Source: Brochothrix thermosphacta DSM 20171 = FSL F6-1036
GTDB lineage: Bacteria; Bacillota; Bacilli; Lactobacillales; Listeriaceae
Assembly: GCF_036884295.1 (NCBI RefSeq)
Contig: NZ_CP145608.1
Span: 620,001-684,000, forward strand
DNA length: 64,000 nucleotides
Direction: 5' to 3'
The translations under genes were made by a program, and so were the position numbers. How positions within the stretch are numbered: position 1 is the stretch's first letter; every line of letters starts with the position of its first letter. Shown here piece by piece: positions 35,031-50,226 of this stretch. The notes beneath the pieces are model-generated. The model made no database searches. It had not been told where the DNA came from and was given only the letters and a program-made list of their open reading frames with translations.

Positions 35031-36185
35031 TTAATGATAACGAGCCATCATTTGTTTGAGTCGTTCCATAGCAATTTTTAAATGATCCATACTAGCAGCG
35101 TAAGAAATACGGAGGTAACGATCCCCTTTTTGAGAAAAGGAGTCACCAGGTATAATAGCGACTTGATACTGTTCCGCAAAGGCTACAGCAAAATCATAAC
35201 TGTTTTCTTTCACATACTCAGGTAGTTTGATAAAGAAGTAAAAAGCACCGTCAGGAGAGATAACATCAAAGCCCATTTCCTCGAGAAGAGGTTGAACATA
35301 ATCGCGTCTTTGGCGATAAGCTTCACGCATTTCCAGTGAATCGTTAAAACCATTGCTGAAGGCTTCTTCTGCAGCAATTTGCGAAATACTTGTGGCACAA
35401 GTTGTTGTGACTTGGTGTATCTTCAAGACATGTCTTACGATCGATTCGGGTGCCATTAAGACACCGATACGCCAACCGGTCATCGCATGCGATTTAGAAA
35501 GCCCATTTAATACGATTGTTTGTTCACGAATCTCACGAGCAAGCGAATAATGTTCTTCACCATAAGTTAGCTCACTATAGATTTCATCTGCAATCAGATA
35601 GATACCTAATTCTTTGATTTTTGCTGCAAGAACAATGGCTTCTTCTTTTGTATAGGTAACACCTGTTGGGTTACACGGATAAGCAAGAATTAAAACCTTT
35701 GTCTTCTCAGTGACATAATTATCTAACATAGCAGGTGTTACCTTGAATTCAGTAACCGTCGTGTCCATAACGACCATCTCAGCCCCTGCAAGATGTATCG
35801 GGGCAGTATAACCAGGATAGAGAGGGTCTGGCACTAAAACCTCGTCACCGGGGTTTAAAACAGTGCTCAGTGCAAGTGAAATTGCCTCAGTCGCACCAAC
35901 TGTAATGACCACTTCAGATAAGGGATCATAATCAAGACTGTATTTCTTTTTGAAATAAGCAGCAGCCGCTTGGCGTGTAGATAAAAAGCCTGCATTTGGC
36001 GTATAGTTTGTAATATTATTATCAATAGCAGCTTTAGCAGCTGTTTTGATGTGATCTGGTGTCGGAAAATCAGGAGCGCCTAAAGTAAGTGGGATAATGT
36101 TAGGTATTATTCCAACTTTTTCGCTGAATTGGCGAATGCCAGAAATTTCAATGTCATCAACTAATCTATTTAAAGGTAAAACCAT
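35031..36185 (-). CDS. patA: PatA-type aminotransferase (class I/II)
   Basis: A 384-residue PLP fold-type I aminotransferase. The PLP lysine is in NGLSKSHAMTGWRIG, with VTVGATEAISLAL, DPLYPGY and YPCNPTGVTY motifs. Bacillus PatA acts on N-acetyl-LL-diaminopimelate, and dapH and dapL, for the steps before and after it in the acetylase branch of lysine/diaminopimelate synthesis, lie 2.3-4.1 kb away on the other strand; this makes that role more likely than aromatic amino acid transamination. AGGAG lies 10 bp before the ATG. The divergent neighbour is Fur-controlled. Confidence 0.82.
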   Translation of the reverse strand: MVLPLNRLVDDIEISGIRQFSEKVGIIPNIIPLTLGAPDFPTPDHIKTAAKAAIDNNITNYTPNAGFLSTRQAAAAYFKKKYSLDYDPLSEVVITVGATEAISLALSTVLNPGDEVLVPDPLYPGYTAPIHLAGAEMVVMDTTVTEFKVTPAMLDNYVTEKTKVLILAYPCNPTGVTYTKEEAIVLAAKIKELGIYLIADEIYSELTYGEEHYSLAREIREQTIVLNGLSKSHAMTGWRIGVLMAPESIVRHVLKIHQVTTTCATSISQIAAEEAFSNGFNDSLEMREAYRQRRDYVQPLLEEMGFDVISPDGAFYFFIKLPEYVKENSYDFAVAFAEQYQVAIIPGDSFSQKGDRYLRISYAASMDHLKIAMERLKQMMARYH

Positions 36186-36270
36186 TCATAAACAACTCCT
36201 TTGTATTGTGTTATGTAATTAATTTATATTTTATCATAACTATCAAACAGATGAAGATAAAAATTATGGC

Positions 36271-36299
36271 TTGATAAAAAAAACGAATTCTAGTATTAT
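36271..36299 (+). promoter_or_regulatory. Sigma-A promoter of the Fur-controlled small gene
   Basis: -35 TTGATA (36271-36276), exact 17-bp spacer, -10 TATTAT (36294-36299). The start would fall at about 36306, inside the Fur box. Confidence 0.75.
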
Positions 36300-36302
36300 A
36301 AG

Positions 36303-36323
36303 TGATAATGATAATTATTATCA
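36303..36323. promoter_or_regulatory. Fur box
   Basis: 36309-36323 reads TGATAATTATTATCA, a perfect match to the 7-1-7 Fur consensus TGATAATNATTATCA; another half-site TGATAAT overlaps at 36303-36309, so the 19-bp form matches 18 of 19 positions. It covers the predicted start site, so Fe-Fur would repress. Confidence 0.88.
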
Positions 36324-36345
36324 TTTAGAAGAGGAGCTGTGAGTT

Positions 36346-36573
36346 ATGTCGAACAATAAACAAATCTGTTTTTTCCAAACGAAAATAAATGGGACGCCAA
36401 TTTTGTTTCAAATTGTCGGCTTTAGCCCAGTGAACTCTTGGGGAGAAATTTATGCAGAGGTAAATCAAGAAAAATATCGATTTGTTGGTTATCATCGCAA
36501 TAAAGTGTTAACCTGTGCTATTTGTGAAACACAACGCCTACTAACAAATATTGTGAACAAAAACAACAGTTAA
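36346..36573 (+). CDS. Fur-controlled 75-residue protein of unknown function
   Basis: Not recognised. The 75-residue product is soluble, with no signal peptide or membrane segment. It contains one CxxC (LTCAICETQ, about residues 59-67) plus Cys8, which could bind iron, zinc or a cluster or be redox active. GAGGAG lies 9-10 bp before the ATG. It is a single-gene unit between divergent patA and ykuJ and has its own promoter overlapped by a perfect Fur box, so it should be induced in iron limitation. A gene in this position exists in Listeria, as I recall. Confidence 0.8.
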   Translation: MSNNKQICFFQTKINGTPILFQIVGFSPVNSWGEIYAEVNQEKYRFVGYHRNKVLTCAICETQRLLTNIVNKNNS

Positions 36574-36695
36574 ATATAAAATAAAGTAAAAAAAAACCAT
36601 CTTTAATTAGTGAAAAAAAGTGTAATATCTGATAAGATAATACATGCGATGATTTTTAAAGCAAATTTTTCAATGAGAAGAGAGGGGTTTTTTAC

Positions 36696-36929
36696 TTGTC
36701 TCAATTAGCAGGTATTATACAACGTTTGAACGCTATGAAAGAGGACGATTCTGTTGAAGTACAACAACGTCGTTTTGAAAGAGAAGGAAAAGCAATTTGT
36801 GAAGTTAAATATTACCAAGCAACTGAATCATTCGAAATTGTTATTTTGGAAGAGGATCAAAAATATCAATTCGATAACATTGATTTAGCAGCAATTGATA
36901 TCTTTGAATTATTACAAGATGCTCAGTAA
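36696..36929 (+). CDS. ykuJ: YkuJ-like protein (DUF1797)
   Basis: A 77-residue cytoplasmic protein of the YkuJ/DUF1797 family, function unknown. MSQLAGIIQRLNAM at the start, then AICEVKYYQATESFEIVILE and QFDNIDLAAIDIFELLQ at the end, follow B. subtilis YkuJ. It begins at TTG 36696, supported by AGAGGGG 8 bp upstream. In Bacillus it also sits just ahead of the CBS protein and ccpC (ykuJ-K-L-ccpC); here ykuK is absent and a terminator separates it from the next gene. Confidence 0.83.
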   Translation: MSQLAGIIQRLNAMKEDDSVEVQQRRFEREGKAICEVKYYQATESFEIVILEEDQKYQFDNIDLAAIDIFELLQDAQ

Positions 36930-36948
36930 ACAATAAGTACTTAAAAAA

Positions 36949-36981
36949 ACAAAGTGAACAGCTGTTTGCTTTGTTTTTTTT
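36949..36981 (+). terminator. Terminator after ykuJ
   Basis: ACAAAGTGAACAG pairs with CTGTTTGCTTTGT through its length (two G-T pairs), followed by seven T. Confidence 0.8.
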
Positions 36982-37059
36982 ATTGCTTTAGAAGTTTTGT
37001 GAAATGTGGTTAAATGGTAGTAAGCTCTTCTTAGCAAATACTAAAGGTGGCGTTTATTA

Positions 37060-37503
37060 ATGAATAACTCATTAAAGGAAGAATTTGAACTTGCAATGGA
37101 AGATTATGTTATTCCAGCAAGCAAAGTAGCACATGTCTTTGAAGATAATAGTCTTGAACATGCTCTACTTGTATTAACAAACACGGGTTATACGTTAATC
37201 CCTGTTTTAGATTATGATAACAAGTATATTGGTATGATTAATAACGCCGGTATTATGAATGATATAATGGGCGTTGAAAGTATTTTGTTTGAAAATTTAC
37301 CAGAAGTAAAAGTTTCTAATGTAGTTATACGTGATTATCCAGTGTTACGTGTAGGTTTTTCATTTGAAATTTTATTAAAACATTTAATTGATCACTCTTT
37401 CTTATGTGTGGTTGATGATGATAACGAATTTGTCGGTATTGTAACACGTAGGGTTGCACTTAAGCGTTTAGCGAAAGCTATTCATCAGCCTGTTGATCAG
37501 TAA
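37060..37503 (+). CDS. cbpB: CBS-domain c-di-AMP receptor CbpB/DarB
   Basis: A 147-residue protein made of two CBS domains (about 15-70 and 80-140), the size and context of Listeria CbpB and Bacillus DarB (YkuL). These bind cyclic di-AMP; the free form stimulates the stringent-response synthetase Rel, linking potassium and nucleotide status to (p)ppGpp. NNSLKEEFELAMEDYVIPASKVAHV at the start and FLCVVDDDNEFVGIVTRR near the end are typical. It directly precedes ccpC, with a 24-bp gap, as in both model genera. Confidence 0.86.
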   Translation: MNNSLKEEFELAMEDYVIPASKVAHVFEDNSLEHALLVLTNTGYTLIPVLDYDNKYIGMINNAGIMNDIMGVESILFENLPEVKVSNVVIRDYPVLRVGFSFEILLKHLIDHSFLCVVDDDNEFVGIVTRRVALKRLAKAIHQPVDQ

Positions 37504-37527
37504 AAAGCGAACAAAGGATGATAAAAA

Positions 37528-38418
37528 ATGAGTATTACAGAATTTAGAATATTGGATATGTTAGCGGAAGAGTTGAACATGAGGAAAACCGCAGAACGCC
37601 TTTATATTTCACAACCAGCACTTTCACAAAGGCTTCAATCGATTGAAGCACGGTGGGAGAAACAGTTGTTTATTCGTACTCGAAAAGGGCTATTGCTAAC
37701 ACCACAAGGTGAAAAAATTATTGAGTTTGCTCGTTCTGTATTGGAAGAAGAAGAACAGGTACTTGATGAACTTTTAGCAATGGAAGGTGTTGTTCAAGGG
37801 ACGTTGAAGATATATTCGGGTACAATTGTTGCTCAACGATGGCTGCCGCATGTTTTTAAAGAGTTTATCGCACAATACCCGCATGTTAATATCGAGCTTG
37901 ATTCCGGCGGGAGCCGCCGTTCACAGCAAGCAATTGCAGATGGTGAAGTACACCTAGCAATTACTCGAGGAGAATCGGATTGGACAGGTGAAAAGCGCTT
38001 TTTGTTTGCAGATAACCTTTGCTTAGTCGATAAATATAATACGACAACAGCTGAAACATTGGCATCTGATCGTCCTTTTATTCGCTTCAAAACAGATTCT
38101 GATTATGATCAAGGAATAATGGATTATTGGCAACAACATTTTCATCGTTTACCTAGTAAAACATTGGTTGTTGATCAGCTTGAAACGTGTAAACAAATGG
38201 CTTTAAGTGGCATTGGGTACACGATTTTACCAGAACTCATTATCGGTAAAAATACGCAACTAAATGTGATGCCGTTGGTTCAAGAAGATGGCGAACGTTT
38301 ACATCGTAATACGTGGTTGTTAGGGTATAAAAAAAGTTTCCAACTGCCACAAGTACAGGCGTTTGTACAATTAATTGAACGTTTGGATAAAGAAAAAGGA
38401 CTATTGCAAATATTCTAA
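37528..38418 (+). CDS. ccpC: LysR-type citrate-responsive regulator CcpC
   Basis: CcpC represses citZ and citB and is relieved by citrate. The 296 residues include an N-terminal winged helix (AEELNMRKTAERLYISQPALSQRLQSIE, about 12-39) almost as in B. subtilis CcpC, then VQGTLKIYSGTIVAQRWLPHV and a periplasmic-binding-like effector domain. Identity is supported by position between cbpB and dapH and by a perfect ATAA-N7-TTAT site before citZ in this window. RBS is AAAGGATGAT. Confidence 0.88.
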   Translation: MSITEFRILDMLAEELNMRKTAERLYISQPALSQRLQSIEARWEKQLFIRTRKGLLLTPQGEKIIEFARSVLEEEEQVLDELLAMEGVVQGTLKIYSGTIVAQRWLPHVFKEFIAQYPHVNIELDSGGSRRSQQAIADGEVHLAITRGESDWTGEKRFLFADNLCLVDKYNTTTAETLASDRPFIRFKTDSDYDQGIMDYWQQHFHRLPSKTLVVDQLETCKQMALSGIGYTILPELIIGKNTQLNVMPLVQEDGERLHRNTWLLGYKKSFQLPQVQAFVQLIERLDKEKGLLQIF

Positions 38419-38430
38419 AATATGGCACAC

Positions 38431-38436
38431 TATAAT
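38431..38436 (+). promoter_or_regulatory. Possible -10 of dapH-dapL
   Basis: TATAAT 28 bp before dapH, just after the ccpC stop; the only -35-like match (TTGCAA) is 20 bp away, too far for a good promoter. Confidence 0.35.
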
Positions 38437-38463
38437 AAATTGATAAAAAAGGAGAATGACATT

Positions 38464-39174
38464 ATGAAGCAAATGGATGCAAATGAAATTATTAAATTTA
38501 TTCAAGAAAGCAAAAAATCAACACCGGTAAAGGTTTACCTTAAAGGTGATTTAGATAAAATAACTTATCCTGACTCTATTAAAGACTTTGTTCAATCAAC
38601 TTCAGGTGTTATTTTTGGTGAATGGGATGTTGTAGAACCATTCCTTACAGAAAACGCTGCTCATATCTCTGATTATGTTTTAGAAAATGACCGTCGTAAT
38701 TCAGCAATTCCAGAAGTAGACTTGAAAAAATTCAATGCTCGTATTGAGCCTGATGTTATGATTCGTGATCAAGTTGAAATCGGTGATAATGCTGTCATCA
38801 TGATGGGAGCATTGATTAATATCGGTGCTGTTATCGGTAAAAACACTATGATTGATATGAACGTTACTCTTGGAGGTCGTGCGACAGTTGGCGATAACTG
38901 TCATATCGGTGCAGGTACTGTTCTTGCAGGCGTTATTGAGCCGCCATCAGCACAACCAGTCATTGTTGAAGATGATGTATTAATTGGCGCTAATTGTACT
39001 GTATTAGAAGGCGTTCGTATTGGTAAAGGTTCTGTTGTTGCAGCCGGAGCGGTTGTCATTAAAGATGTAGAACCAGGAACAGTGGTTGCCGGTATTCCAG
39101 CACGTGAAATTAAGAAAATTGATGATAAAACACGTTCTAAAACAGAAATTATGTCGGCATTACGCGAACTGTAA
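38464..39174 (+). CDS. dapH: Tetrahydrodipicolinate N-acetyltransferase
   Basis: Acetylates tetrahydrodipicolinate with acetyl-CoA, the entry to the acetylase branch of meso-diaminopimelate and lysine synthesis. The 236 residues combine an N-terminal alpha domain (1-85) with a left-handed beta-helix made of hexapeptide repeats (about 88-215, for example [16 protein letters not shown] and [10 protein letters not shown]). I chose ATG 38464, after AAAAAGGAG, which gives [14 protein letters not shown] as in homologues, over an ATG at 38422. dapL follows after 24 bp. Confidence 0.96.
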
Positions 39175-39198
39175 ACGTTGAAGAAAGAAGGAACGTCG

Positions 39199-40323
39199 AT
39201 GAACTTAACTGACTTGCAAAAAATACGCCGTGATTTACATCAAATTCCTGAATTGGGATATGAAGAATTTAAGACACAAGCGTATTTATTGGATTATCTT
39301 TCACAACTGCCACAAGCGAATATGGTCGTGAAAAAATGGCGTACGGGATTACTTGTACGTATTTCAGGAACAGATTCAAAAAAAACGATTGGTTACCGTG
39401 CCGATATGGATGGACTTCCAATCGTTGAAGAAACAGGGTTAGCGTATGCCTCTAAACATCTGGGGAAAATGCATGCCTGTGGTCATGATATGCATATGAC
39501 AATCGCGTTAGGTGTCATTACAAATATCGTAACGGCCCCTCTTCAAAACGATGTTGTTTTTTATTTTCAACCAGCAGAAGAAAATCCTGGTGGTGCTCAA
39601 CCAATGTTGGCATCGGATGAGATGAAAGAATGGTGGCCAGATCAAATACTTGCCTTACATGTGGCTCCTGAATATGAAGTAGGGAAAATCGCTTTGAAGC
39701 CAGGATTGTTATTTGCCAATACGAGTGAGCTATTTGTTAATTTCACTGGTAAAGGTGGACATGCGGCGTATCCTCATAAAGCGAATGACATGGTAGTTGC
39801 CGCTTGTGAATTTGTATCACAAGTGCAATCGATTATCAGTCGTAATATTGACCCACTAGACAGTGCAGTTATTACGATCGGTAAAGTTGCGGCTGGGAAC
39901 ACCATGAATATTATTTCAGAAACAGCTGCGATAGAAGGAACGATTCGAACATTATCAAAAGAAACAATGGCGATTGTTAATGCACGCATTGCTCAATTGA
40001 TCGAGGGGATGTCAATTGCCTATGATTGTAAAATTGAGCGTTTGGAGCGTCCCGCCTATATGCAAGTCTACAATAACGAACAAGTAACCAAGGAATTTAT
40101 CGATCATTTAGAAAAACAATTTCCTGAGGCCTATGTTCCTTGTCGTGAAGCAATGACAGGAGAAGATTTTGGTTATATGTTAGATAAAATTCCTGGGTTA
40201 ATGTTTTGGTTAGGCATTGATACGCCATACGGATTGCATCATTCTAAAATGTCACCAACTGAAGAGGCGTTACCTTTTGCAGTGGGTGTTATTACAAGTT
40301 ACTTGAAAAGTTTAGACAAATAA
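39199..40323 (+). CDS. dapL: N-acetyldiaminopimelate deacetylase
   Basis: An M20-type metallo-deacetylase that removes the acetyl group from N-acetyl-LL-diaminopimelate. 374 residues, as in Bacillus. Metal and catalytic motifs are [28 protein letters not shown] and the late GLHHSKM. Start ATG 39199 follows GAAGGA; an upstream in-frame TTG at 39178 lacks a ribosome site. With dapH here and patA nearby, three consecutive steps of the acetylase route are in this window. Confidence 0.93.
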
Positions 40324-40357
40324 AAAAGAAAAGGCGCTTTCGCCTTTTCTTTTTTTT
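40324..40357. terminator. Bidirectional terminator between dapL and mscS
   Basis: AAAAAGAAAAGGCG / CGCCTTTTCTTTTT with a CTTT loop, starting at the dapL stop and ending 9 bp before the mscS stop. Confidence 0.9.
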
Positions 40358-40365
40358 ATTTTGGT

Positions 40366-41235
40366 TTATGTTGTTGGTGCGATTGATAGAGGCATCAATA
40401 GTTTTTTTGCTTGGAAGTTTTGATACACTTTTTGATAAAGTTCATTGCTAACAACAAATTGTGATCCATTTACTGTATTAGTTGAAATCGTCACAACGAA
40501 GTTACCTTGTTCATAACCGACAATACCAGACACAACAGGTGTATCGACGATATTTGCATTATTTCTCGTGTACTCACGAGTAGTTTCCTCGATTGCAGCA
40601 AGAGCCTTATCAATATCTTCATTTGGGTTAATTTGAATACGCACAAGCGCCAACATATTCCCACGAGAATGATTGCTTACGACCATAATTTCACGATTGG
40701 GAATAAAATGAATTGTCCCGTTGAGATCTCTGATTTGTGTTGTACGTAACCCCAATAACTCAACAGTCCCTTTAATTTCTCCAACTGTGATATTGTCACC
40801 CACATCGAGTTGACGTTCCAATAGAATAAAGAAACCAGTGACAACATCACTTACTAAGCCTTGGGCACCAAAAGCCACTGCTAAACCGACGATACCCGCA
40901 CTAGCGATGATGGCACGTACGTCTACGTTAAATGTACTCAATACACTAACGCTCAAGATAAACATCAAGATATAACGAAAAGCATTTTCAATTAGACTTA
41001 AAAGTGTATTTGAACGATTTTCGCTGACATTTTCACGCTTGCTATAACTGTCGAAAATTTTACGAATAATCCTTTGCCCAATAGCGCGTACGATATAGTA
41101 AATGATTACTGTGAAAATCAGGGATAGCAGACCATTAATAATGGTATCAATAATGTTTGACCAATCAATATTATTAAAAGTGGTATTGAAACGTGTAATT
41201 TGATTTGTTACTTCATTTGAGAAAGTCTCACTCAA
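40366..41235 (-). CDS. mscS: Small-conductance mechanosensitive channel (MscS family)
   Basis: An osmotic-downshock safety valve of about 289 residues. N-terminal helix (about 27-50), then a second helix and the pore-lining TM3 rich in Ala and Gly (ASAGIVGLAVAFGAQGLVSDVVTGFF), followed by the beta domain motif VGDNITVGEIKGTVELLGLRTTQIRDLNG and FIPNRE. Start is uncertain: AAGGA lies 10 bp before TTG 41235 but 1-2 bp before GTG 41244, so I prefer the TTG. The location after dapL is shared with Listeria and with Bacillus ykuT. It is convergent with dapL. Confidence 0.88.
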   Translation of the reverse strand: MSETFSNEVTNQITRFNTTFNNIDWSNIIDTIINGLLSLIFTVIIYYIVRAIGQRIIRKIFDSYSKRENVSENRSNTLLSLIENAFRYILMFILSVSVLSTFNVDVRAIIASAGIVGLAVAFGAQGLVSDVVTGFFILLERQLDVGDNITVGEIKGTVELLGLRTTQIRDLNGTIHFIPNREIMVVSNHSRGNMLALVRIQINPNEDIDKALAAIEETTREYTRNNANIVDTPVVSGIVGYEQGNFVVTISTNTVNGSQFVVSNELYQKVYQNFQAKKLLMPLSIAPTT

Positions 41236-41428
41236 AAAAATCACATCCTTATTAGCTTGTTTACTCTTTAAGAGCTATTACAATTGTACTTGTTATACAT
41301 AAATTAGTCTAATTTTATAAAAGTGAGAGCGTTTGCCTAATAATTGTATAAGTTTTGTACAAAATTCACTGTTTTATGACAACAATGAGAGCGTGCCGTT
41401 TAAAATAAGCGATTATAGTGGAAAGTCA

Positions 41429-41437
41429 TGCTATAAT
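41429..41437 (+). promoter_or_regulatory. Extended -10 promoter of crr
   Basis: TGCTATAAT with -10 TATAAT at 41432-41437; no clear -35. Predicted start near 41444, 35 bp before crr. Confidence 0.6.
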
Positions 41438-41478
41438 ATATGTGATAGAAAGAACTATTTAAGGAGGAAATATAAATT

Positions 41479-41982
41479 ATGTTTAAAAAATTATTCGGTA
41501 AAGAAAAAGCAATCACAAATGAAAAAATTGTATCACCAGTAACAGGTGTATTAATTAAGATTGAAGAAGTTCCAGACCCAGTATTTGCTCAAAAAATGAT
41601 GGGTGAAGGTGTTGGTGTTCAACCAACAAACGGTATCGTTGTAGCACCAGTAGACGGCGAAATTATTCAAATTGCAGAAAAAAGCAAACATGCTTTTGGT
41701 ATCCGCTCTGCACTTGGACAAGAAATTCTTGTACACATTGGTTTAGAAACAGTGGCAATGGAAGGTGAAGGCTTTAAGACACTTGTTAAATTAGGCGATC
41801 ACGTTAAAGCTGGTCAACCAATCATCGAAGCTGATCTTGAATTAATTAAAGAAAAAGCAGCTTCAACAGTTATTCCAGTTGTTGTTACTAATAGTAGCAA
41901 TAACGAATATGACTTTGTATGGACTGAACCAGGTAATGTAACAGCTGGTGAAACAGTTATTTTTGAAACAACAGCAAAATAA
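41479..41982 (+). CDS. crr: PTS glucose-type IIA component
   Basis: A free-standing IIA-Glc domain of 167 residues. Active-site His86 (EILVHIGLETV) and the companion His71 (KHAFGI) are present, as are VAPVDGEI and GEGF. It receives phosphate from HPr and passes it to a IIBC partner encoded elsewhere. AAGGAGG precedes the ATG. It is a single-gene unit with its own promoter and terminator, as in Listeria. Confidence 0.93.
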   Translation: MFKKLFGKEKAITNEKIVSPVTGVLIKIEEVPDPVFAQKMMGEGVGVQPTNGIVVAPVDGEIIQIAEKSKHAFGIRSALGQEILVHIGLETVAMEGEGFKTLVKLGDHVKAGQPIIEADLELIKEKAASTVIPVVVTNSSNNEYDFVWTEPGNVTAGETVIFETTAK

Positions 41983-41990
41983 TAATTTAA

Positions 41991-42029
41991 AACGCAATGA
42001 ATGGCTTTTTCATTTGTTGCGTTTTTTTT
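41991..42029 (+). terminator. Terminator after crr
   Basis: AACGCAATGAATG pairs with CATTTGTTGCGTT (two G-T pairs), followed by T residues. It lies directly before the M42 peptidase ribosome site. Confidence 0.87.
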
Positions 42030-42044
42030 AGGGGGATATTTTAC

Positions 42045-43118
42045 ATGAATAATAACACACAGCAATTATTTAAAACTTTGACTGAAATGGCAGCACCATC
42101 AGGATTTGAACGACCAGTACGTGCTTTTATGAAAGAGCAGATGGCACCGAATGTTGATCGTTTTGAACAAGATGGTTTAGGGGGCTTGTTTGGCGTAAAA
42201 GAAAATGCAGGAGCACCACGTATTTTAGTTGCCGGACATATGGATGAAGTTGGTTTTATTGTTACTAAAATTACACCTAATGGCATGATTAAATTTGATA
42301 CGTTAGGTGGATGGAGTCCACATGTGTTGTCAGCACAACGCGTTCAAATCGTTTCTGACCATGGACCTGTAATCGGTGTTATTGCATCAGTGCCACCACA
42401 TCTTTTATCTGAAGCAGAACGTAACGCACCAGTTAAAGCAGCTAACTTATTGATTGATATTGGTGCAGACAACGCTGAAGAAGTTATGGAATCATTTGGT
42501 ATTTTACCAGGTTATCCAATCGCACCAGTTTCAGAATTCACACCTATGGCTAACCCAAAGAAAATTTTAGCGAAAGCATGGGATAATCGTTATGGTGTTG
42601 GTTTAGCAATTGAAGCAGCAGAAGAGTTGAAAAATATTAAATTACCGCATGAATTATATATCGGTGCGACAGTACAAGAAGAAGTTGGTCTTAGAGGCGC
42701 TGAAGCAGCAGCAAGCATGATTAAACCAGAAATGTTCATCGCATTAGATGCTTCACCAGCTAATGATACAACAGGCGATAAAAGTCAATTTGGTCAATTA
42801 GGCGGCGGATTCTTGTTACGTATCTATGATCGTACGATGATCACTCATCGAGGGTTACGTGATTTTATGTTAGAAACAGCGAAGGATAATCACATTCCTT
42901 ATCAATACTTTGTATCGCCAGGCGGAACAGACGCTGGAACTGTTCATAAAATGGAAGGCGGAATTCCAAGTGCAGTAATTGGTTTGCCATCACGCTACAT
43001 TCATACTAGTCAATCAATTTTACATGTGGATGATTATGCAGCAGCCAAAGAAATGCTCTTGAAATTATTACCACAATTAGATGCAACAACAATCGCATCA
43101 ATTAAAGAAAATGCATAA
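42045..43118 (+). CDS. pepA: M42-family glutamyl aminopeptidase
   Basis: A cytoplasmic dinuclear-metal aminopeptidase of the M42 (PepA/YsdC/FrvX) family, 357 residues, trimming peptides from their N-terminus. Metal-ligand motifs are [41 protein letters not shown] and RYIHTSQS. I chose ATG 42045, 8 bp after GGGGGA; an earlier in-frame ATG at 41997 lies inside the crr terminator. M42 members differ in specificity, so glutamyl preference is only the family default. Confidence 0.88.
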
Positions 43119-43183
43119 ATCTCACGAAAATTAAATTGCGGGTCTAATGTTTTATCTTTGTGTTTAATTTTTAAAAAATAAAA

Positions 43184-43220
43184 AACGAGCTTATCAAAAT
43201 TAGATAAGTTCGTTTTTTTT
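43184..43220. terminator. Bidirectional terminator after the M42 peptidase
   Basis: AACGAGCTTATC / GATAAGTTCGTT with A and T tracts on the two sides. It also ends the minus-strand peptide operon at 43.3-43.9 kb. Confidence 0.85.
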
Positions 43221-43258
43221 GCATTTTATTTTTGACATCTAAAAGTTGTGTAGTTTAT

Positions 43259-43402
43259 TTAATCCCTTTTTGAAAAAAATGTAAAAAGTAACAAGACAAC
43301 AATTAACATGATAGAAAAAGTGAGATATTGCTTCGCATGAAAATTTAACACAGTAATTATAATAGATAAAATTATCGTAAAAATTAATTTCAGCTGATCC
43401 AT
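43259..43402 (-). CDS. 47-residue two-helix membrane peptide (immunity-like)
   Basis: A short gene with AAGGAG 8 bp before its ATG. The product MDQLKLIFTIILSIIITVLN... has two hydrophobic helices (about 5-20 and 27-43), a short FHAKQY loop and a charged KRD end. It lies 29 bp after the end of a secreted cationic peptide gene (now broken) on the same strand, before a shared terminator. Small hydrophobic peptides in this position often give immunity to a bacteriocin. No family is recognised, and function is inferred from size, topology and position only. Confidence 0.6.
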   Translation of the reverse strand: MDQLKLIFTIILSIIITVLNFHAKQYLTFSIMLIVVLLLFTFFSKRD

Positions 43403-43431
43403 AGAAGTCACTCCTTCATTTTACACTCCTA

Positions 43432-43918
43432 TTATATGACAGCCCAAACAATTCCTTGAGCTATATAACCAGCTGAGTTAGCAATCATTCTAGGCACGCC
43501 TTTTTTTGTAGAAATTGGGATACTCCAGATTTCACTTCATCCAAAGGACTTAATAATACATAAGTGCTCCACCCGGCAACGAAATTTTTTTGAGAAATTT
43601 TTTTCTTCACGAATTTTGGCATCTTGGAATATATTTTTTTAGGTAAAACTTGGGTTGTGTATCTTTTCCCGAATTTTTTTATTAAGATACGGCCAACACT
43701 TCCCCATCCTTTAGTTTGAGACGAATTCACATGATAATTTTTTTGAGTTACTTCGTTATCTAAAGAAGCACTAACAACATCTTCATTTTCAAAAGTATTA
43801 TCTAATATTTTTTGTTTTCCAGTCGTTCTGCAGAAATGGTAGATGCAATCGGCGAAAAAGATGTGAAAAATAGAGTGAAAGATAAAATACCAATTAAATA
43901 CTTACTCGTTTTTTTCAT
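43432..43918 (-). pseudogene. Frameshifted gene for a secreted cationic peptide (bacteriocin-like)
   Basis: AGGAG then ATG 43918 opens a frame with a typical signal peptide (MKKTSKYLIGILSFTLFFTS..., likely cut after ISA near residue 30) that stops at 43802. Adding one A to the A6 run just before it joins the frame to KILDNTFENEDVVSASLDNE...; adding one A to the A7 run near 43500 extends past the TGA at 43485 to GVPRMIANSAGYIAQGIVWAVI and the stop at 43432. The restored protein would be 162 residues: an acidic segment, then a strongly basic, aromatic part (GWGSVGRILIKKFGKRY). No family is recognised. Confidence 0.7.
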
Positions 43919-43974
43919 AACATTACTCCTGTGTTTTTTTATTTGTTTGTTAATTTAATGCTACAACAGAATGA

Positions 43975-44003
43975 ATGTAAAGTAACGCACCGTGTAGTTG
44001 CAA
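43975..44003 (-). promoter_or_regulatory. Weak candidate promoter of the secreted-peptide gene (minus strand)
   Basis: -35 TTGCAA (44003-43998), 17-bp spacer, -10 TTACAT (43980-43975), which matches the -10 consensus poorly. Confidence 0.3.
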
Positions 44004-44042
44004 TTATTAAATTGAAAGAACACATAAGCTTATTAAGAACTG

Positions 44043-44106
44043 AAAAGAATCATTAACGATTTTTTAATCGGTAGGCGTATCTTTGAAAGCTCATAAGTTT
44101 GGCCTT
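44043..44106. repeat. Dispersed repeat, copy A
   Basis: AAAAGAATCATTAACGATT... to GTATCTTTGAAAGCTCATAAGTTTGGC resembles 60241-60303 along its length, with scattered mismatches. Neither copy is inside a gene. Confidence 0.5.
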
Positions 44107-44178
44107 TTTTTAATAGAGAGAAAAATAAAAGGACATTAATGAAATTTCTCGATTTAGGAAGATAACGCAATCAAGCAG

Positions 44179-44187
44179 TGGTATACT
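44179..44187 (+). promoter_or_regulatory. Extended -10 promoter of the AEC transporter gene
   Basis: TGGTATACT with -10 TATACT at 44182-44187, 32 bp before the start codon. Confidence 0.5.
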
Positions 44188-44219
44188 AATAGTATTTTAA
44201 AAAGGGCGGGTGAGAAAAA

Positions 44220-45176
44220 ATGGCTATACTTATGCAAGGCGCAGAAGGGATATTAACGATTCTAGTAATGATAGGGTTAGGATATTACCTATGTAGTCGA
44301 AAGTGGTTTGACGAGCGCACAACGGGTGTTATCGTACGTTTAGTAATTGTGGTATCTTTACCGATGTATATGATTTACAATATTCTCACCGATTTCACAA
44401 GAGATAAACTAATTGACCTTGTTCCTGGTTTGATGTATCCGTTATTATCAATGGGAATATTATTCATTGTGTCATTGTTAATGACGCGGATATTTCGTGT
44501 AAGAAAGGGACGACGTGGTACGTTTGCGTCGATGTTTTTAAACTCAAATACATTATTTATCGGTCTTCCTGTTAACCTCGCGTTATTTGGGACAAGTAGT
44601 TTACCGTATGTTCTAATTTATTTTATGGCAAATACGCTTTGTTTTTGGACATTAGGTGTTTATTTGATTAGTAAGGATGGCGAAAACAGTGAAATGGGTA
44701 AACCATCGGTTAAAACAGTTTTATCACGTGTTTTTTCGCCCCCTTTTATCGCTTTTTTAGTGGCTATTTTACTTTTATTATTAAATGTCCAATTTCCTAA
44801 ATTTATTATGGATGATATGAAATACATTGGTGGAATGACAACTCCGTTATCAATGATCTTTATTGGTATTTGTATTTATCGGGCAGGAATTGAAAATGTT
44901 CGTTTATCAAAAGATGCCTTTGGGATTCTATTAGGTCGTTTCATAATTGCGCCAGCAATAATGATTGGGCTCGTATACTTTGCAGATATACCCATGCTGA
45001 TGAAAGAGGTGTTTATTATCCAATCAGCTATGCCAGTAATGACAAATGCACCTGTCATTGCGCGAGCGAGTGGTGCGGATGCAGATTATGCTGCAATCAT
45101 GGTCACGCTGAGTACTTTGTCTGCTTTGGTAGCCATCCCATTTTTATTATTTGCTGTTTCAAAAATCCCGTTTTAA
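44220..45176 (+). CDS. AEC-family transporter (malate/auxin-efflux carrier type)
   Basis: A 318-residue membrane protein with ten predicted helices in two inverted halves. Family motifs are LVIVVSLPMYMIYNIL in helix 2, the FLNSNTLFIGLPV segment in helix 4 and IQSAMPVMTNAPVIARASGADADYAA near helix 9. Bacterial members include malate permeases and malolactic transporters; the substrate is not decided by the sequence and no metabolic gene is adjacent. The ATG follows GGGCGGGTGA. Confidence 0.85.
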   Translation: MAILMQGAEGILTILVMIGLGYYLCSRKWFDERTTGVIVRLVIVVSLPMYMIYNILTDFTRDKLIDLVPGLMYPLLSMGILFIVSLLMTRIFRVRKGRRGTFASMFLNSNTLFIGLPVNLALFGTSSLPYVLIYFMANTLCFWTLGVYLISKDGENSEMGKPSVKTVLSRVFSPPFIAFLVAILLLLLNVQFPKFIMDDMKYIGGMTTPLSMIFIGICIYRAGIENVRLSKDAFGILLGRFIIAPAIMIGLVYFADIPMLMKEVFIIQSAMPVMTNAPVIARASGADADYAAIMVTLSTLSALVAIPFLLFAVSKIPF

Positions 45177-45236
45177 TCGATTTAATAAGCTGGACAGAAC
45201 GGTATCATCTTAATAAGCTATTAAAAACACTGATTT

Positions 45237-45253
45237 TGTTAGCTTATGTAACA
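45237..45253. promoter_or_regulatory. GlnR/TnrA box upstream of amtB
   Basis: TGTTAGCTTATGTAACA fits TGTNA-N7-TNACA perfectly. It is centred about 70 bp upstream of the predicted amtB start site. It overlaps an inverted repeat ATAAGCTA (45212-45219 region) / TAGCTTAT (45240-45247). Confidence 0.75.
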
Positions 45254-45279
45254 AAATAAACAGAATATTCCGTATTTTA

Positions 45280-45308
45280 TTGCTTACGTTTGAAAATCTG
45301 CCTATAAT
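45280..45308 (+). promoter_or_regulatory. Sigma-A promoter of amtB-glnK
   Basis: -35 TTGCTT (45280-45285), 17-bp spacer, -10 TATAAT (45303-45308); start near 45315. Confidence 0.72.
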
Positions 45309-45364
45309 TCAATCTCATAGAAGGATAGTTTTCTAGCAACTAATCTGAAAAGGGGATGTAATTT

Positions 45365-46552
45365 ATGGCAGATACAGGATTTGTTTTTATATGTGCACTA
45401 CTAGTATGGTTGATGACGCCGGGGTTAGCATTTTTTTATGGCGGTATGGGGCAAACTAAAAATGTGTTAAGTACCGCGATGTATAGTTTTTCTGCAATCG
45501 TAGTTGTTTCTATTTTATGGGTGATTGTCGGATATAGTTTGGCATTTTCACCAGGTAATTTATTTTTTGGAGGCTTTGATTATGTTTGGTTAAAAGACGT
45601 CGGTTATAGTATTCCTAAGGAAGGTATACCTGATGTGTTGAACATGATGTTCCAATTAACTTTTTGTGCTGTAACAGTTGCAATTATTAGTGGGGCTGTG
45701 GCAGAACGAATGAATTTTACAGCTTGGTTATTATTTATTAGTTTATGGGTATTGCTTGTTTATACTTTTGTAGCCCATTGGGTTTGGGGCGGAGGTTTTA
45801 TTGATGAAAAAATCGGAGCGCTCGATTTTGCAGGTGGAACAGTTGTACATATTGCATCTGGAGTAGCAGGTTTAGTACTAGCACTGATGTTAGGCAAACG
45901 TAAAGAAATTGCGTTGCCGCATAATTTAACATTGGTCGGTTTAGGTGCAACGCTTGTTTGGTTAGGATGGTATGGTTTCAACACTGGGAGTGCGCTTGGG
46001 TTAACTGATATTGCTATGCATGCTTTCGTTAATACGAATACAGCAGCCGTTTTTGGTATTGTTGCTTGGGTAGGAATTGAATGGATTGTTATAAAAAAAC
46101 CCACGTTTTTAGGCACAATGAGTGGTGCGTTGGCAGGGCTTGTAGGTATTACGCCAGCCGCAGGTTTTGTCACAATTACAGGGGCGATGTGTATTGGCTT
46201 ACTAACTGCAGCAGGCTGTTACTGGGCGATTGCATACTTGAAACCTCGTCTTGGTTACGATGATGCTTTGGATGCGTTTGGATTACATGGTATTGGAGGA
46301 ACAATTGGGGCGTTGCTAACAGGTGTGTTTGCAACTTCATCAGTCGGAGGCACGGATGGTCTTTTCAGCGGTAACCCCATGTTAGTATGGGATCAGTTTT
46401 TAGCAGTTATTATTACCATTGCTTTTGTTGCCGTGATGACATATCTAATTGCTAAAGTGGTATCATTTATTACACCGCTACGTGTCAATCAAAAAGCAGA
46501 GCAAACTGGTTTAGATGTAACGATACATGGTGAGCGTGCTTATCGAGAATAA
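45365..46552 (+). CDS. amtB: Ammonium transporter AmtB/NrgA
   Basis: An 11-helix ammonium channel of 395 residues. The pore twin histidines are in GGTVVHIASG and DAFGLHGIGGTIGA, and the early MTPGLAFFYGGM block is the Amt signature. There is no cleavable signal peptide, as usual for Gram-positive AmtB. It is followed after 20 bp by glnK, the classic amtB-glnK pair in which GlnK plugs the channel when nitrogen is plentiful. The GlnR/TnrA box upstream implies nitrogen-responsive control. Confidence 0.96.
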   Translation: MADTGFVFICALLVWLMTPGLAFFYGGMGQTKNVLSTAMYSFSAIVVVSILWVIVGYSLAFSPGNLFFGGFDYVWLKDVGYSIPKEGIPDVLNMMFQLTFCAVTVAIISGAVAERMNFTAWLLFISLWVLLVYTFVAHWVWGGGFIDEKIGALDFAGGTVVHIASGVAGLVLALMLGKRKEIALPHNLTLVGLGATLVWLGWYGFNTGSALGLTDIAMHAFVNTNTAAVFGIVAWVGIEWIVIKKPTFLGTMSGALAGLVGITPAAGFVTITGAMCIGLLTAAGCYWAIAYLKPRLGYDDALDAFGLHGIGGTIGALLTGVFATSSVGGTDGLFSGNPMLVWDQFLAVIITIAFVAVMTYLIAKVVSFITPLRVNQKAEQTGLDVTIHGERAYRE

Positions 46553-46572
46553 TTCAAAAGGGGGTTTTATAG

Positions 46573-46929
46573 ATGGTAGAGGAAACAGGTATCTTTAAAG
46601 TTGAAATTATTACACGAGATGGTAAGTTTTATGAGCTGCAAAAAGCATTAAAGGAAGTTGGTATTACTGGGATCACTGTAACAAATGCATTAGGGACAGG
46701 TTTGCAAAAAGGTGAACTGGAACTATATCGTGGTGTGAAACATGATTCTAGCGTGTTTGAACGCATCAAAATCGAAATCGTCGTTCATGATGTCCCAGTC
46801 GATACAGTGATTGATGTTACCAAACATGTTTTGGGTACAGGGCAACCTGGAGATGGTAAAATATTTGTTTATCCCATTGTTAGAGTCGTGGACATTAGAA
46901 CAGGAAATGAAGGACGCGACGCATTATAA
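46573..46929 (+). CDS. glnK: PII nitrogen regulatory protein GlnK/NrgB
   Basis: A 118-residue PII-family signal protein binding ATP/ADP and 2-oxoglutarate. The T-loop (about 40-57) reads LQKGELELYRGV with the Tyr at the uridylylation position, and the B and C regions HVLGTGQPGDGKIFVYPI are intact. AAAGGGGG lies before the ATG. It should bind AmtB and a GlnR/TnrA-type regulator. The operon ends at the hairpin at 47015. Confidence 0.95.
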   Translation: MVEETGIFKVEIITRDGKFYELQKALKEVGITGITVTNALGTGLQKGELELYRGVKHDSSVFERIKIEIVVHDVPVDTVIDVTKHVLGTGQPGDGKIFVYPIVRVVDIRTGNEGRDAL

Positions 46930-47014
46930 TTTTTTGAAAGATTGTTTTAATAACTGAAATAATCGAAGGCGTCATATCATTATAAAATAGTTTAATTTTT
47001 TTTTTATGTAAGCC

Positions 47015-47047
47015 AAAGCACAAAACATTTGTTTTGTGCTTTTTTTT
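47015..47047 (+). terminator. Terminator after amtB-glnK
   Basis: AAAGCACAAAACA / TGTTTTGTGCTTT with a very short loop and a T-run. Confidence 0.9.
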
Positions 47048-47087
47048 GCTTAATATAGTATGGGATTACACGTTCCAACTCTAAACA

Positions 47088-47121
47088 CGAACAATAAATA
47101 TATATATTGCTTTAATGTTCG
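47088..47121. promoter_or_regulatory. PurBox pair (PurR operator) of the purine operon
   Basis: CGAACAATA (47088-47096) and TAATGTTCG (47113-47121) are inverted with a 16-bp spacer, the geometry of tandem PurBoxes bound by the PRPP-responsive PurR repressor of Firmicutes. They end 8 bp before the -35 element. Confidence 0.85.
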
Positions 47122-47129
47122 ATTATAGG

Positions 47130-47159
47130 TTGACAGTATTTTGGGTTATTTGTTACAAT
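47130..47159 (+). promoter_or_regulatory. Promoter of the purine operon
   Basis: -35 TTGACA (47130-47135), 18-bp spacer, TGT-TACAAT extended -10 (47154-47159); start near 47166. The 140-nt leader shows a small hairpin GTGTTA/TAACAC but no guanine-riboswitch core. Confidence 0.8.
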
Positions 47160-47305
47160 GATATTGAAAGTAATAGAGATAATTAAAAATTACGATATAA
47201 TTAGAAATGACCCTTTCATCTTAATTTAATGGGAGAGTGTTAAACTCAATCTAACACATCGTATATCTTAAATAGATTAATTACTAAGTAAAAGTGGAGG
47301 CGTTT

Positions 47306-47794
47306 ATGACTGTCAAAATTGGTGTGATAATGGGAAGTACATCGGATTGGCCAACAATGAAGTTGGCATGTGACGTATTGGAACAGTATGGGATTGATTA
47401 TGAAAAAAAAGTAGTCTCAGCACATCGAACGCCAGATCTAATGTTTGAATATGCAGAGCAAGCGCGCCAACGAGGAATCCAGATAATTATTGCGGGTGCG
47501 GGTGGTGCTGCACATCTTCCAGGCATGGTAGCAGCTAAAACAACGCTCCCAGTGATCGGTGTCCCGATTCAATCACGTGCACTCAATGGAATGGATTCAC
47601 TTTTATCCATTGTACAAATGCCAGGTGGTGTCCCTGTTGCAACAGTAGCGATTGGTGAAGCTGGTGCTAAAAATGCAGGGCTGCTTGCAGCTCAAATTTT
47701 AGGGATTAATGACAATGACATTGCCACCCACTTAGATGACAATCGAAATGATATGCGAAATACAGTGATAGAAAGTAGTGATTTTCTTGAATAA
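47306..47794 (+). CDS. purE: N5-carboxyaminoimidazole ribonucleotide mutase
   Basis: Class I PurE converts N5-CAIR, made by PurK, to CAIR. 162 residues with [14 protein letters not shown] at the N-terminus, VVSAHRTPD (catalytic His about 44) and [14 protein letters not shown] 47306 follows GTGGAGG; the GTG at 47294 is part of that ribosome site. It is the first gene of the operon and overlaps purK. Confidence 0.96.
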
Positions 47795-48908
47795 ACAGTT
47801 GTATCCAGGTCAAACAATTGGTATTATCGGTGGTGGGCAACTTGGAAAAATGCTTGCTCTATCAGCAAAATCAAACGGTTTTTATGTAATAGTACTTGAT
47901 CCAGTGGCAAATTGCCCTTGTGCACAAGTGAGTGATGAACAGATTGTTGCCGACTATGATGATAAAACAGCGCTTAAACAATTGGCGCAACGTGCAGATG
48001 TCCTCACTTATGAATTCGAAAACATTGATTACAATGCGCTTCAAGCTGTTGAGAATAAAACAATAGTAGCACCAAATGCAGAGATACTATCGATTACGCA
48101 AGATCGTATTTTAGAAAAAACATTTTTGACTGACTTGAGCATAAATGTGGCACCATTTGCTGTTATTGTTGATCGTACAGATATTGATGCAAAAATTGCA
48201 GGCATTGGTTTCCCATCTGTGCTTAAAACAAGTAACGGTGGTTACGATGGTAAAGGGCAAGTAGTTATGCAAGATGAGCAGGATATTGAAGAAGCTGCAA
48301 AACTATTGCAATACGGACCATGTGTACTTGAAGCATGGATTCCATTTGATTCAGAAGCTTCAATTCTTGTATCGCGTAATCATTCGGGAGACATTCAATT
48401 GTTCCCAGTCGTTGAAAACGAACATCGCGATAACATTTTACATTTAACGATTGCACCGGCTCGATTATCGGCTGAAGTCATTTTACAAGCTGAAAGTATT
48501 GCGACTAAGTTAGCGCAAAAAACAGGCTTGGTTGGTACGTTAGCCATTGAGTTGTTTATCGGTAAAAATGAGGCAGTTTATGTTAATGAATTAGCACCAC
48601 GTCCGCATAATTCAGGTCATTATTCGATTGAAGCATGTGATTTTTCACAATTTGAACAACACATTAGAGCAATTGCAGATTGGCCATTACAGCGTCCACA
48701 ATTATTAAAAAAAGCAATAATGGTTAATGTATTAGGACAACATGTTGATAAAGTATATGCAGCAATTCCACATCATCCAGATTGGCATATTCATATGTAT
48801 GGTAAAGATGCGGCTAAGCACAATCGTAAAATGGGGCATATCACTTTGTTAACGAATGATGTTGAGTCAGCGCTAGAAGATTTAAAAAACACCCGTATTT
48901 GGGATTAA
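47787..48908 (+). CDS. purK: N5-carboxyaminoimidazole ribonucleotide synthase
   Basis: An ATP-grasp enzyme making N5-CAIR from AIR, bicarbonate and ATP. About 373 residues with [19 protein letters not shown] at the N-terminus, [10 protein letters not shown] in the ATP-grasp and [17 protein letters not shown] as the metal/substrate motif. The start is uncertain: TTG 47787 gives [13 protein letters not shown] as in homologues; GTG 47778 is also in frame. Both overlap the purE stop, so the two genes are coupled. Confidence 0.94.
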
Positions 48909-48924
48909 TTGGAGGAAAAATTAA

Positions 48925-50226
48925 ATGATTGAACGCTATACCCGACCAGAGATGGGCAATATATGGACAACAGAAAATCGTTATAAAGCATGGTTAGAAG
49001 TAGAAATTTTGGCTGATGAAGCTTGGGCTGAATTAGGGATGATTCCTAAAGAAGATGCGGCTAAAATTCGCGCGAATGCTTCATTCGATAGTGCGCGTAT
49101 TGCTGAAATTGAAAAAGAAACACGTCACGATGTTGTTGCATTTACTCGCTCAGTATCAGAATCATTAGGCGATGAAAAAAAATGGGTGCATTATGGTCTA
49201 ACATCAACAGATGTGGTTGATACGGCCAATGGTTATTTGCTTAAACAAGCAAACGATATACTTCGCACTGATTTGCATAACTTCATTGAAATTATAAAAA
49301 ATAAAGCAATCGAGCACAAAGATACTGTTACAATGGGTCGTACACACGGCGTTCATGCTGAACCAACAACGTTTGGATTGAAATTGGCATTATGGTATTC
49401 AGAAATGCAACGTAACTTAGAGCGTTTTGAACATGCCGCTCATACTGTCGAATTCGGAAAAATTTCGGGTGCAGTTGGTACTTATGCAAATATCGATCCG
49501 TTTGTTGAATCGTATGTTTGTGAAAAAATTGGCATCTCTGCAGATCCAATTTCAACACAGGTATTACAACGTGACCGTCATGCTGAATATGTGAGTACGT
49601 TAGCATTGATTGCTACATCGATTGAAAAATTCGCAACAGAAATTCGTGGTTTGCAAAAATCAGAAATCCGCGAAGTTGAAGAAGCTTTTGCCAAAGGGCA
49701 AAAAGGTTCATCAGCGATGCCGCATAAACGTAACCCAATCGGCTCAGAAAATATGACTGGATTGGCACGAGTTGTTCGTGGGCATGTGATGACAGCATTC
49801 GAAAACGTAACGTTATGGCATGAACGAGATATCTCGCATTCATCTGCTGAACGTATCATTTTGCCAGATGCAACAATTTTACTTGATTATATGCTTAACC
49901 GTTTTGGAAATATTGTGAAAAACTTAACAGTATTCCCTGAAAATATGAAGCGTAATATGGAAGCAACACATGGTTTAATCTATTCACAACACGTTTTGTT
50001 AACATTGATTGATAAAGGGATGGCACGTGAAGAAGCGTATGATACGGTTCAACCACTCGCGATGACATCTTGGGAAGAATCACTTCCTTTCCGTGGCTTA
50101 GTTGAAAACAACCCGATTATTGCTGGTAAATTATCAGCAGAAGAAATCGAAGCATGTTTTGATTATAACTATCATTTAACAAAAGTAGACTTTATCTTTG
50201 AACGACTAGGTCTTATCTCCAAATAA
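48925..50226 (+). CDS. purB: Adenylosuccinate lyase
   Basis: Cleaves SAICAR to AICAR and adenylosuccinate to AMP, with fumarate released. 433 residues of the fumarase/aspartase superfamily: [15 protein letters not shown] (catalytic His about 141) and the flexible signature loop [12 protein letters not shown] with the catalytic Ser. TTGGAGGAA precedes the ATG. It follows purK after 16 bp; a 168-bp structured gap without a terminator separates it from purC. Confidence 0.96.

Follow-up and report, generated by a model that had tools for sequence, protein, structure and literature searches.

Does a short, AT-rich gene pair on the chromosome of Brochothrix thermosphacta preserve the remains of a bacteriocin together with an intact gene for immunity to it? 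The pair (30.8% G+C, against 37.6% for the window) lies within the window, that is, the whole 64,000-base stretch of DNA analyzed here, which covers positions 620001-684000 of a genome assembled as one contig of 2,564,037 bases and 99.96% complete. On the minus strand, a broken signal-peptide gene is followed after a 29 nt gap by an intact 47-codon gene, a layout that the original prediction had read as a bacteriocin gene with its immunity gene. With a probability of roughly 0.7, we take the locus to be a bacteriocin-immunity pair of a family absent from the libraries searched, in which the killer gene has become a pseudogene and the immunity gene is intact. The locus comprises the following features (loci are numbered L, and genomes G):

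43432-43918, minus strand: decayed gene for a putative Sec-secreted, bacteriocin-like pre-pro protein, spread over three frames and homologous to intact proteins in L043, L044, L046, L061-L063, and L102
43802-43918, minus strand: first frame, with the start codon, a signal peptide (judged by eye), 38 codons, and a stop
43808-43813, minus strand: A-run at or near the first frame change, placed by the end of the signal-peptide frame
43485-43802, minus strand: second frame, with an acidic pro-region (43802 to about 43719) and a basic conserved core (43718-43506), assigned by core homology and charge count
43501-43507, minus strand: A-run at or near the second frame change, placed by the core and tail match boundaries of relatives
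43432-43500, minus strand: third frame, with the hydrophobic C-terminal helix (tail), matched by relatives in its own frame, and then the stop
43259-43402, minus strand: intact gene for a 47-residue two-helix membrane peptide, a putative immunity protein (hydropathy; homologues in L057 and L102; profile match to L087)
43180-43218, no strand assigned (listed on the plus strand; a T-run comes after it on the minus strand as well): terminator-like hairpin that separates the pair from a convergent peptidase gene

The reading frame of the first gene changes twice, each time at or near one of these A-runs. The first frame opens with an ATG at 43918, preceded by AGGAG, and ends after 38 residues at a stop codon at 43804-43802; the second (43802-43485) is a lysine-rich frame of 105 codons without a stop; and the third holds the C-terminal tail and closes with a stop codon at 43434-43432. 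The distance from the ATG to the last stop is 487 bases, which fits the restored length of 162 residues that had been proposed for a decayed signal-peptide gene on this strand. When 11 intact relatives were used as tblastn queries over the 1.3 kb region 43001-44300, all of them matched the core in one frame (E 1e-19 to 6e-8), and eight matched the tail in another (E 0.003 or better), where 17-21 residues align at 52-65% identity; the tail matches of the Paraclostridium protein and L063 reach this level when joined to the core. The L. sakei tail match covers ten residues (E 1.0), and for L062 and the S. agalactiae protein, no tail match was found in this region. Against the whole 64 kb window, the tail gives E values of 0.10-0.16 where it is listed on its own and attains significance only when joined by BLAST to the core match, for example with Paraclostridium and L063. 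With most relatives, alignment to the core stops at 43506 and resumes in another frame, that of the tail, at 43497 or 43485; in the eight with a tail match, it lies 11-20 bases further on. The order and spacing of these matches show that the gene was once continuous, with a frame change around the A-run at 43501-43507. The first frame change probably lies at 43808-43813, where the signal-peptide frame ends, a site that none of the homology matches spans.

By sequence, the first gene is a member of a real family. Profile A2, in which the window core itself is one of the 12 rows, matches the window at E 1.5e-36, and both the homologous core and the hydrophobic tail of the family represented by L044, L061, and L102 are present, as is the two-helix small gene downstream, while the open frame for the secreted protein is interrupted by the two frame changes. 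The pro-region and core carry charges of -5 and +15 in the window, and of -4 and +8 in L102. A signal peptide can be recognized by eye in most of the intact proteins; the annotated Paraclostridium protein (L043) has none.

The breaks themselves allow a second interpretation, according to which the pair is the same and its first gene is really intact or switchable, with base-calling errors or slippage at A-runs producing the apparent frame changes. Both breaks lie at or near such runs, and the first gene holds seven runs of seven or more A in its 487 bases, compared with 25 in the 51,018 bases of the 46 other window genes, which makes slippage or base-calling errors plausible; the 105-codon core frame, moreover, is stop-free and still close to its relatives. 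Against this stands a synonymous redraw of the core, where six A-runs are seen against a mean of 4.0 and 45 of 2000 redraws reach as many, so that the runs are mostly explained by lysine-rich coding and AAA usage. Five intact relatives have 0-1 such runs each, and broken copies are common in the family, so that decay needs no special cause; the 99.96% completeness of the single contig is uninformative on run-length errors. An intact or switchable first gene is on these grounds rather unlikely, and we favor a killer gene that has decayed into a pseudogene.

The first gene is broken or fragmentary in 11 loci, and the small gene is still open in eight of them (the window, L045, L047, L056, L057, L064, L074, and L075); L059 and L060 retain short fragments without a partner, and L050 only a 33-residue ORF. 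This distribution suggests that bacteria keep the immunity gene by selection after the weapon is lost, the survival of the small gene being weak evidence of selection because it has only about a third of the first gene's length. Elsewhere in the window, an aminotransferase-like gene (21967-23331) is interrupted by an in-frame stop behind codon 335 and then stays open in that frame for about 118 more; it is a second broken gene in the window, and its break is not at a homopolymer run.

The small gene (43402-43259) encodes 47 amino acids with two hydrophobic segments by hydropathy, has AAGGAG eight nt ahead of its ATG, and is intact at the proposed distance of 29 nt. Shuffling tests relate its product to the small proteins of L057 (z 11.8) and L102 (z 8.3; 0 of 1000 shuffles each), with values of 3.4 for Brevibacillus, 3.0 for L087, 1.8 for L075, 1.2 for Paraclostridium, and -0.1 for L072. 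L102, from a genome of another family, encodes an intact 172-residue secreted protein (40% identity to the window core and 71% to the tail), and a homologue of the 47-residue gene begins 11 or 20 nt behind it, according to which start codon is taken. Both genes of this intact pair have their homologues in the window. The 47-residue frame is conserved here and also in L057, of the same family as L102, where the first gene has decayed with in-frame stops and the small gene is open; the doubt raised at the outset, that the short frame might not be conserved, is thereby answered. In L075, from the window's own family, the first gene is shortened in its core and the small gene is open, with 51 residues. 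A profile search of 398 genomes with the small protein gave 15 matches at E 0.01 or better, among which only three are clear (the genome itself, the L085/L057 genome, and L087 at E 9.7e-8); the other 12 (E 0.002-0.01) were dropped, and tblastn with the peptide found no plasmid match. L087 has the small gene and no detectable first gene nearby, and its orphan peptide lies between flavodoxin-like and DUF368-like membrane genes (names assigned by eye).

The pairing of the two genes is itself conserved. Seventeen intact relatives were opened (L043, two in L044, L046, L048, L049, L051-L054, L058, L061-L063, L072, L073, and L102), and the downstream side was scanned in 15 of them (L051 and L052 were left out, and plasmid matches H9, H10, and H17 were unopened). 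A protein of 52-64 residues with two hydrophobic segments, judged by eye for L053, L058, and L102 and by hydropathy for the others, lies 3-22 nt downstream in 12 of the 15, or 13 if the 120-residue multi-helix protein found 29 nt downstream in L073 is counted. The exceptions to the expectation that the first gene comes with an immunity partner are L048 and L049, the two streptococcal plasmids scanned, which lack a two-helix partner downstream and have only a 33-residue single-helix ORF. By comparison, such a gene follows only 1 of 113 control ORFs, a set of remaining ORFs with at least 120 codons, spurious or not, from the two strands of the window and of 12 further records; the same automatic scan finds a small downstream gene for 6 of 9 family members, with L. 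sakei, whose gene runs to the record end, among the three misses. This association supports the proposed layout of a putative bacteriocin with its immunity gene. Eight Brevibacillus-type pairs, two from a named Brevibacillus plasmid and the rest from genomes and IMG/VR contigs, share a gene spacing of 17-20 nt and a conserved AGAAAGGAGAT site, with a median dN/dS of 0.22 for the secreted protein (28 comparisons) and 0.45 for the small protein (27 comparisons); both genes evolve under constraint in these copies. Across the family, the small proteins form several groups that are barely alike in sequence, so that a shared immunity function for them is argued from position. Just before one Brevibacillus-type pair, on an IMG/VR contig (L064, 4151-4813), lies a gene for a 220-residue secreted-looking protein.

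Beyond the pair, a hairpin of 16 pairs (43180-43218) agrees with the predicted shared terminator; the terminator scan gave one site here against 0.4 expected from shuffles, and the hairpin, which also stands behind the peptidase gene, may serve both the pair and the peptidase. The same-genus genome G001 (85% complete) has an orthologous peptidase (93% identity), and the pair is absent from the 1.5 kb behind it, where other genes lie, so that the locus is variable. A second copy is absent from the B. thermosphacta genome itself (next match E 0.16), and the plasmid search found no DNA-level match to the window region.

Searches with the window core and the 47-residue peptide, a check of the kind that the original prediction had proposed, recovered intact relatives as well as small-gene homologues. 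The relatives are 145-194 residues long and come from Brevibacillus, Paraclostridium, lactobacilli, streptococcal plasmids, and other families. Among plasmids, the window core matches those of Brevibacillus halotolerans (E 3e-13), B. laterosporus (3e-10), Paraclostridium (1e-5), Latilactobacillus sakei (8e-5), and Secundilactobacillus (2e-3), with weak streptococcal matches near E 0.1. Distribution among genomes is patchy: 5 of 398 genomes in the class sample were positive, the genome itself included; a phylum sample of 398 gave the genome itself and one match confined to the N-terminal part; and family-wide searches yielded 2 of 100 genomes around G354 and 1 of 98 around G886. Several copies may share a replicon or genome, as in L044, where two tandem pairs lie on one plasmid (2296-3022 and 3773-4492), and in genome G232, where three Brevibacillus-type places comprise two intact genes and one fragment. 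Members are also found in IMG/VR contigs. Among viral contigs, profile A2 recovered the same four loci, and four further scans, three of them using distant members as queries and the fourth the window core, were negative; phage records contained no relative at E 1 or 0.1. L075 (genome G009) gave no match in the window-sequence search and was found by profile only. Several candidates were set aside, namely L042 (an archaeal bin), the sole match of the genome-contig scan and an unrelated ORF that has one short motif in common by chance; hits between E 0.01 and 1 in a set of 100 related genomes, treated as noise (41 of 100 genomes in one search and 49 of 100 in another, own included); and the profile matches L071 and L076-L081 (E 6e-5 to 1e-3), which cover the N-terminal third only.

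The expectation that the proteins would match no known family held in the libraries searched. In Pfam and NCBIfam, no score exceeded the cut-off for any of the four pieces of the window or the eight proteins from relatives that were searched, and profile searches of the PDB gave no significant sequence match. PHROGs returned weak matches only (E 0.035-0.093), and in PADLOC, the proteins of L061 reached E 0.003-0.04, mostly to PDC-S02, while those of the window had no match; the matches from both libraries were taken as chance. An AlphaFold model of L061, built on a four-row alignment, has low confidence over the first 80 residues, followed by a predicted helical C-terminal domain (pLDDT 67-83 in 10-residue blocks from residue 81) whose last helix, 152-169, corresponds to the hydrophobic tail; modeled alone, the C-terminal domain has a mean of 63.7, with the last helix below a pLDDT of 50. 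Fold searches brought up helical proteins such as globins, at best with E 3.8 in Foldseek and, among 66 aligned chains, with Z 4.9 in VIA; these matches were unused, as was the single match of the domain-alone search (E 9.7).

The pair probably belongs to a known class, that of large Sec-exported bacteriocins with a micro-immunity gene, and its sequence family is new to the libraries searched. Within this class, EntV, also called enterocin O16 or enterococcin V583 (EF1097, PDB 7ROA), is described as a 170-residue, Sec-exported pre-pro protein from which a 34-residue signal is removed and the 68-residue C-terminal half is released; its N-terminal half is negative and its C-terminal half positive, the latter having a positively charged outer face and closing with a hydrophobic helix, and the protein needs a disulfide between C106 and C167 (PMC9562342; PMC6606811; PMC5454873). 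A second gene, ef1097b, is induced with EF1097, and self-protection against EntV is described as an unsettled matter (PMC5454873), for which EF1352 has been proposed elsewhere (PMC3667150). The window family resembles EntV in its pre-pro plan, charge split, hydrophobic last helix, and second gene, but lacks the cysteine pair: the mature parts of four relatives contain 0-1 cysteine, and no cysteine occurs in the window where its core and tail align. The EntV chain was not among the two matches of the PDB profile search (E up to 10), nor in the Foldseek or VIA-align lists, for which the query models rest on four-row alignments.

Dysgalacticin is reported to be a large, Sec-exported plasmid bacteriocin that acts on the glucose and mannose PTS and on the membrane potential, with a membrane-associated immunity protein, DysI (PMC8308785), whose gene sits behind the rep gene on its own plasmid (PMC5702455). 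Likened by description only, it shares with the family its large size, Sec export, plasmid coding, and a membrane immunity partner, and differs in length (220 residues, against 145-194 for the intact relatives here). On plasmid pA852 (L083), a 50-residue hydrophobic ORF (708-860) occupies dysI's reported place behind rep, and a 102-residue signal-peptide protein with two cysteines is encoded on the other strand (900-1208). These ORFs score z -0.1 against the window small protein and 0.2 against the L102 secreted protein, neither being significant, and z 3.0 with L048 and 2.9 with L072; neither is clearly related to the window pair. Streptococcin A-M57 of S. pyogenes is listed as a plasmid-coded class III bacteriocin (PMC8308785), which EF1097 is said to resemble (PMC3667150). 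On comparison by description only, the family may conceivably be distant kin of dysgalacticin and streptococcin A-M57 (class IIIb), or the same as that of streptococcin A-M57. Corynicin JK was sought on plasmid pKW4, where the single ORF tried, possibly the wrong gene, gave no match.

The nearest published support is the relative on the S. pyogenes plasmid pA996 (WP_020958253.1), which has near-identical copies in S. agalactiae and S. dysgalactiae; pA996 is said to carry a putative bacteriocin, whose gene the source leaves unnamed (PMC10808429). With the S. agalactiae copy (L048), the window core shares 32% identity over 71 residues (E 6e-8 within 1.3 kb), and the match between the pA996 protein and the L. 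sakei member has E 2e-17. When all plasmids were searched with the window core, pA996 came up at only E 0.09. The titles and abstract openings listed, which mostly exclude subscription papers, contain no description of the family in Brochothrix or Brevibacillus, and the passages of the B. thermosphacta genome paper that deal with bacteriocin production name a lantibiotic-type cluster and do not mention the pair (PMC6180393).

Taken together with the layout, these comparisons suggest how the pair might act by analogy. The first gene would encode a pre-pro protein that its signal peptide directs to export through Sec, with the acidic pro-region holding it inactive. Its active part would be the C-terminal domain, about 90 residues long, basic, wholly helical, and closed by the hydrophobic helix; this domain may enter the membrane of related competitors via this tail and cause leakage, perhaps after docking to a membrane protein, as reported for dysgalacticin. 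The two-helix peptide encoded by the second gene would stay in the producer's membrane and stop the action there.

A second alternative grants that the two genes work together and assigns them a role outside antagonism, as a secreted protein with a membrane partner for signaling, surface anchoring, or processing. It would be in keeping with the literature covered, which reports no activity for any member, and with the searches, in which no significant similarity to known toxins was found. Occurrence on plasmids, in IMG/VR contigs, and in several copies per genome or plasmid is nevertheless usual for bacteriocins and supports the bacteriocin reading, and the patchy distribution, frequent decay, and divergent partners also suit bacteriocins better than such functions, as does the presence of a relative on pA996, the plasmid credited with a putative bacteriocin (PMC10808429). 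A non-antibacterial pair is in our estimate improbable.

Small hydrophobic peptides can be toxic when overproduced, and the 47 residues and two hydrophobic segments of the second gene's product would suit a type I toxin-like or holin-like peptide with an unrelated first gene as its neighbor, but the close succession of the two genes in several families (12 of 15 loci scanned), the conserved ribosome site of the Brevibacillus-type copies, and the finding that no Rfam family reaches its gathering score in 36000-50000 make this explanation very improbable.

The bacteriocin-immunity pair with a decayed killer gene thus remains our preferred reading, under which this strain most likely no longer makes the bacteriocin, yet could remain immune to it. 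More tentatively, and as a proposal we would not yet lean on, the locus may be one example of uncatalogued Sec-exported pre-pro bacteriocins without a disulfide that occur in several Bacillota families on plasmids, prophage-like contigs, and chromosomes, most of them with a fast-changing micro-immunity protein of 47-65 residues, in which the killer often decays and orphan immunity genes remain. If true, this would leave a store of immunity genes that have lost their partners and are too short to be picked up by standard gene prediction. The finding, if right, adds a large two-gene bacteriocin family, with very short partner genes, that was missed by the libraries searched, and the intact pairs of L061 and L102 would allow immunity conferred by a two-helix peptide of about 50 residues to be studied, a question described as open for EntV (PMC5454873).
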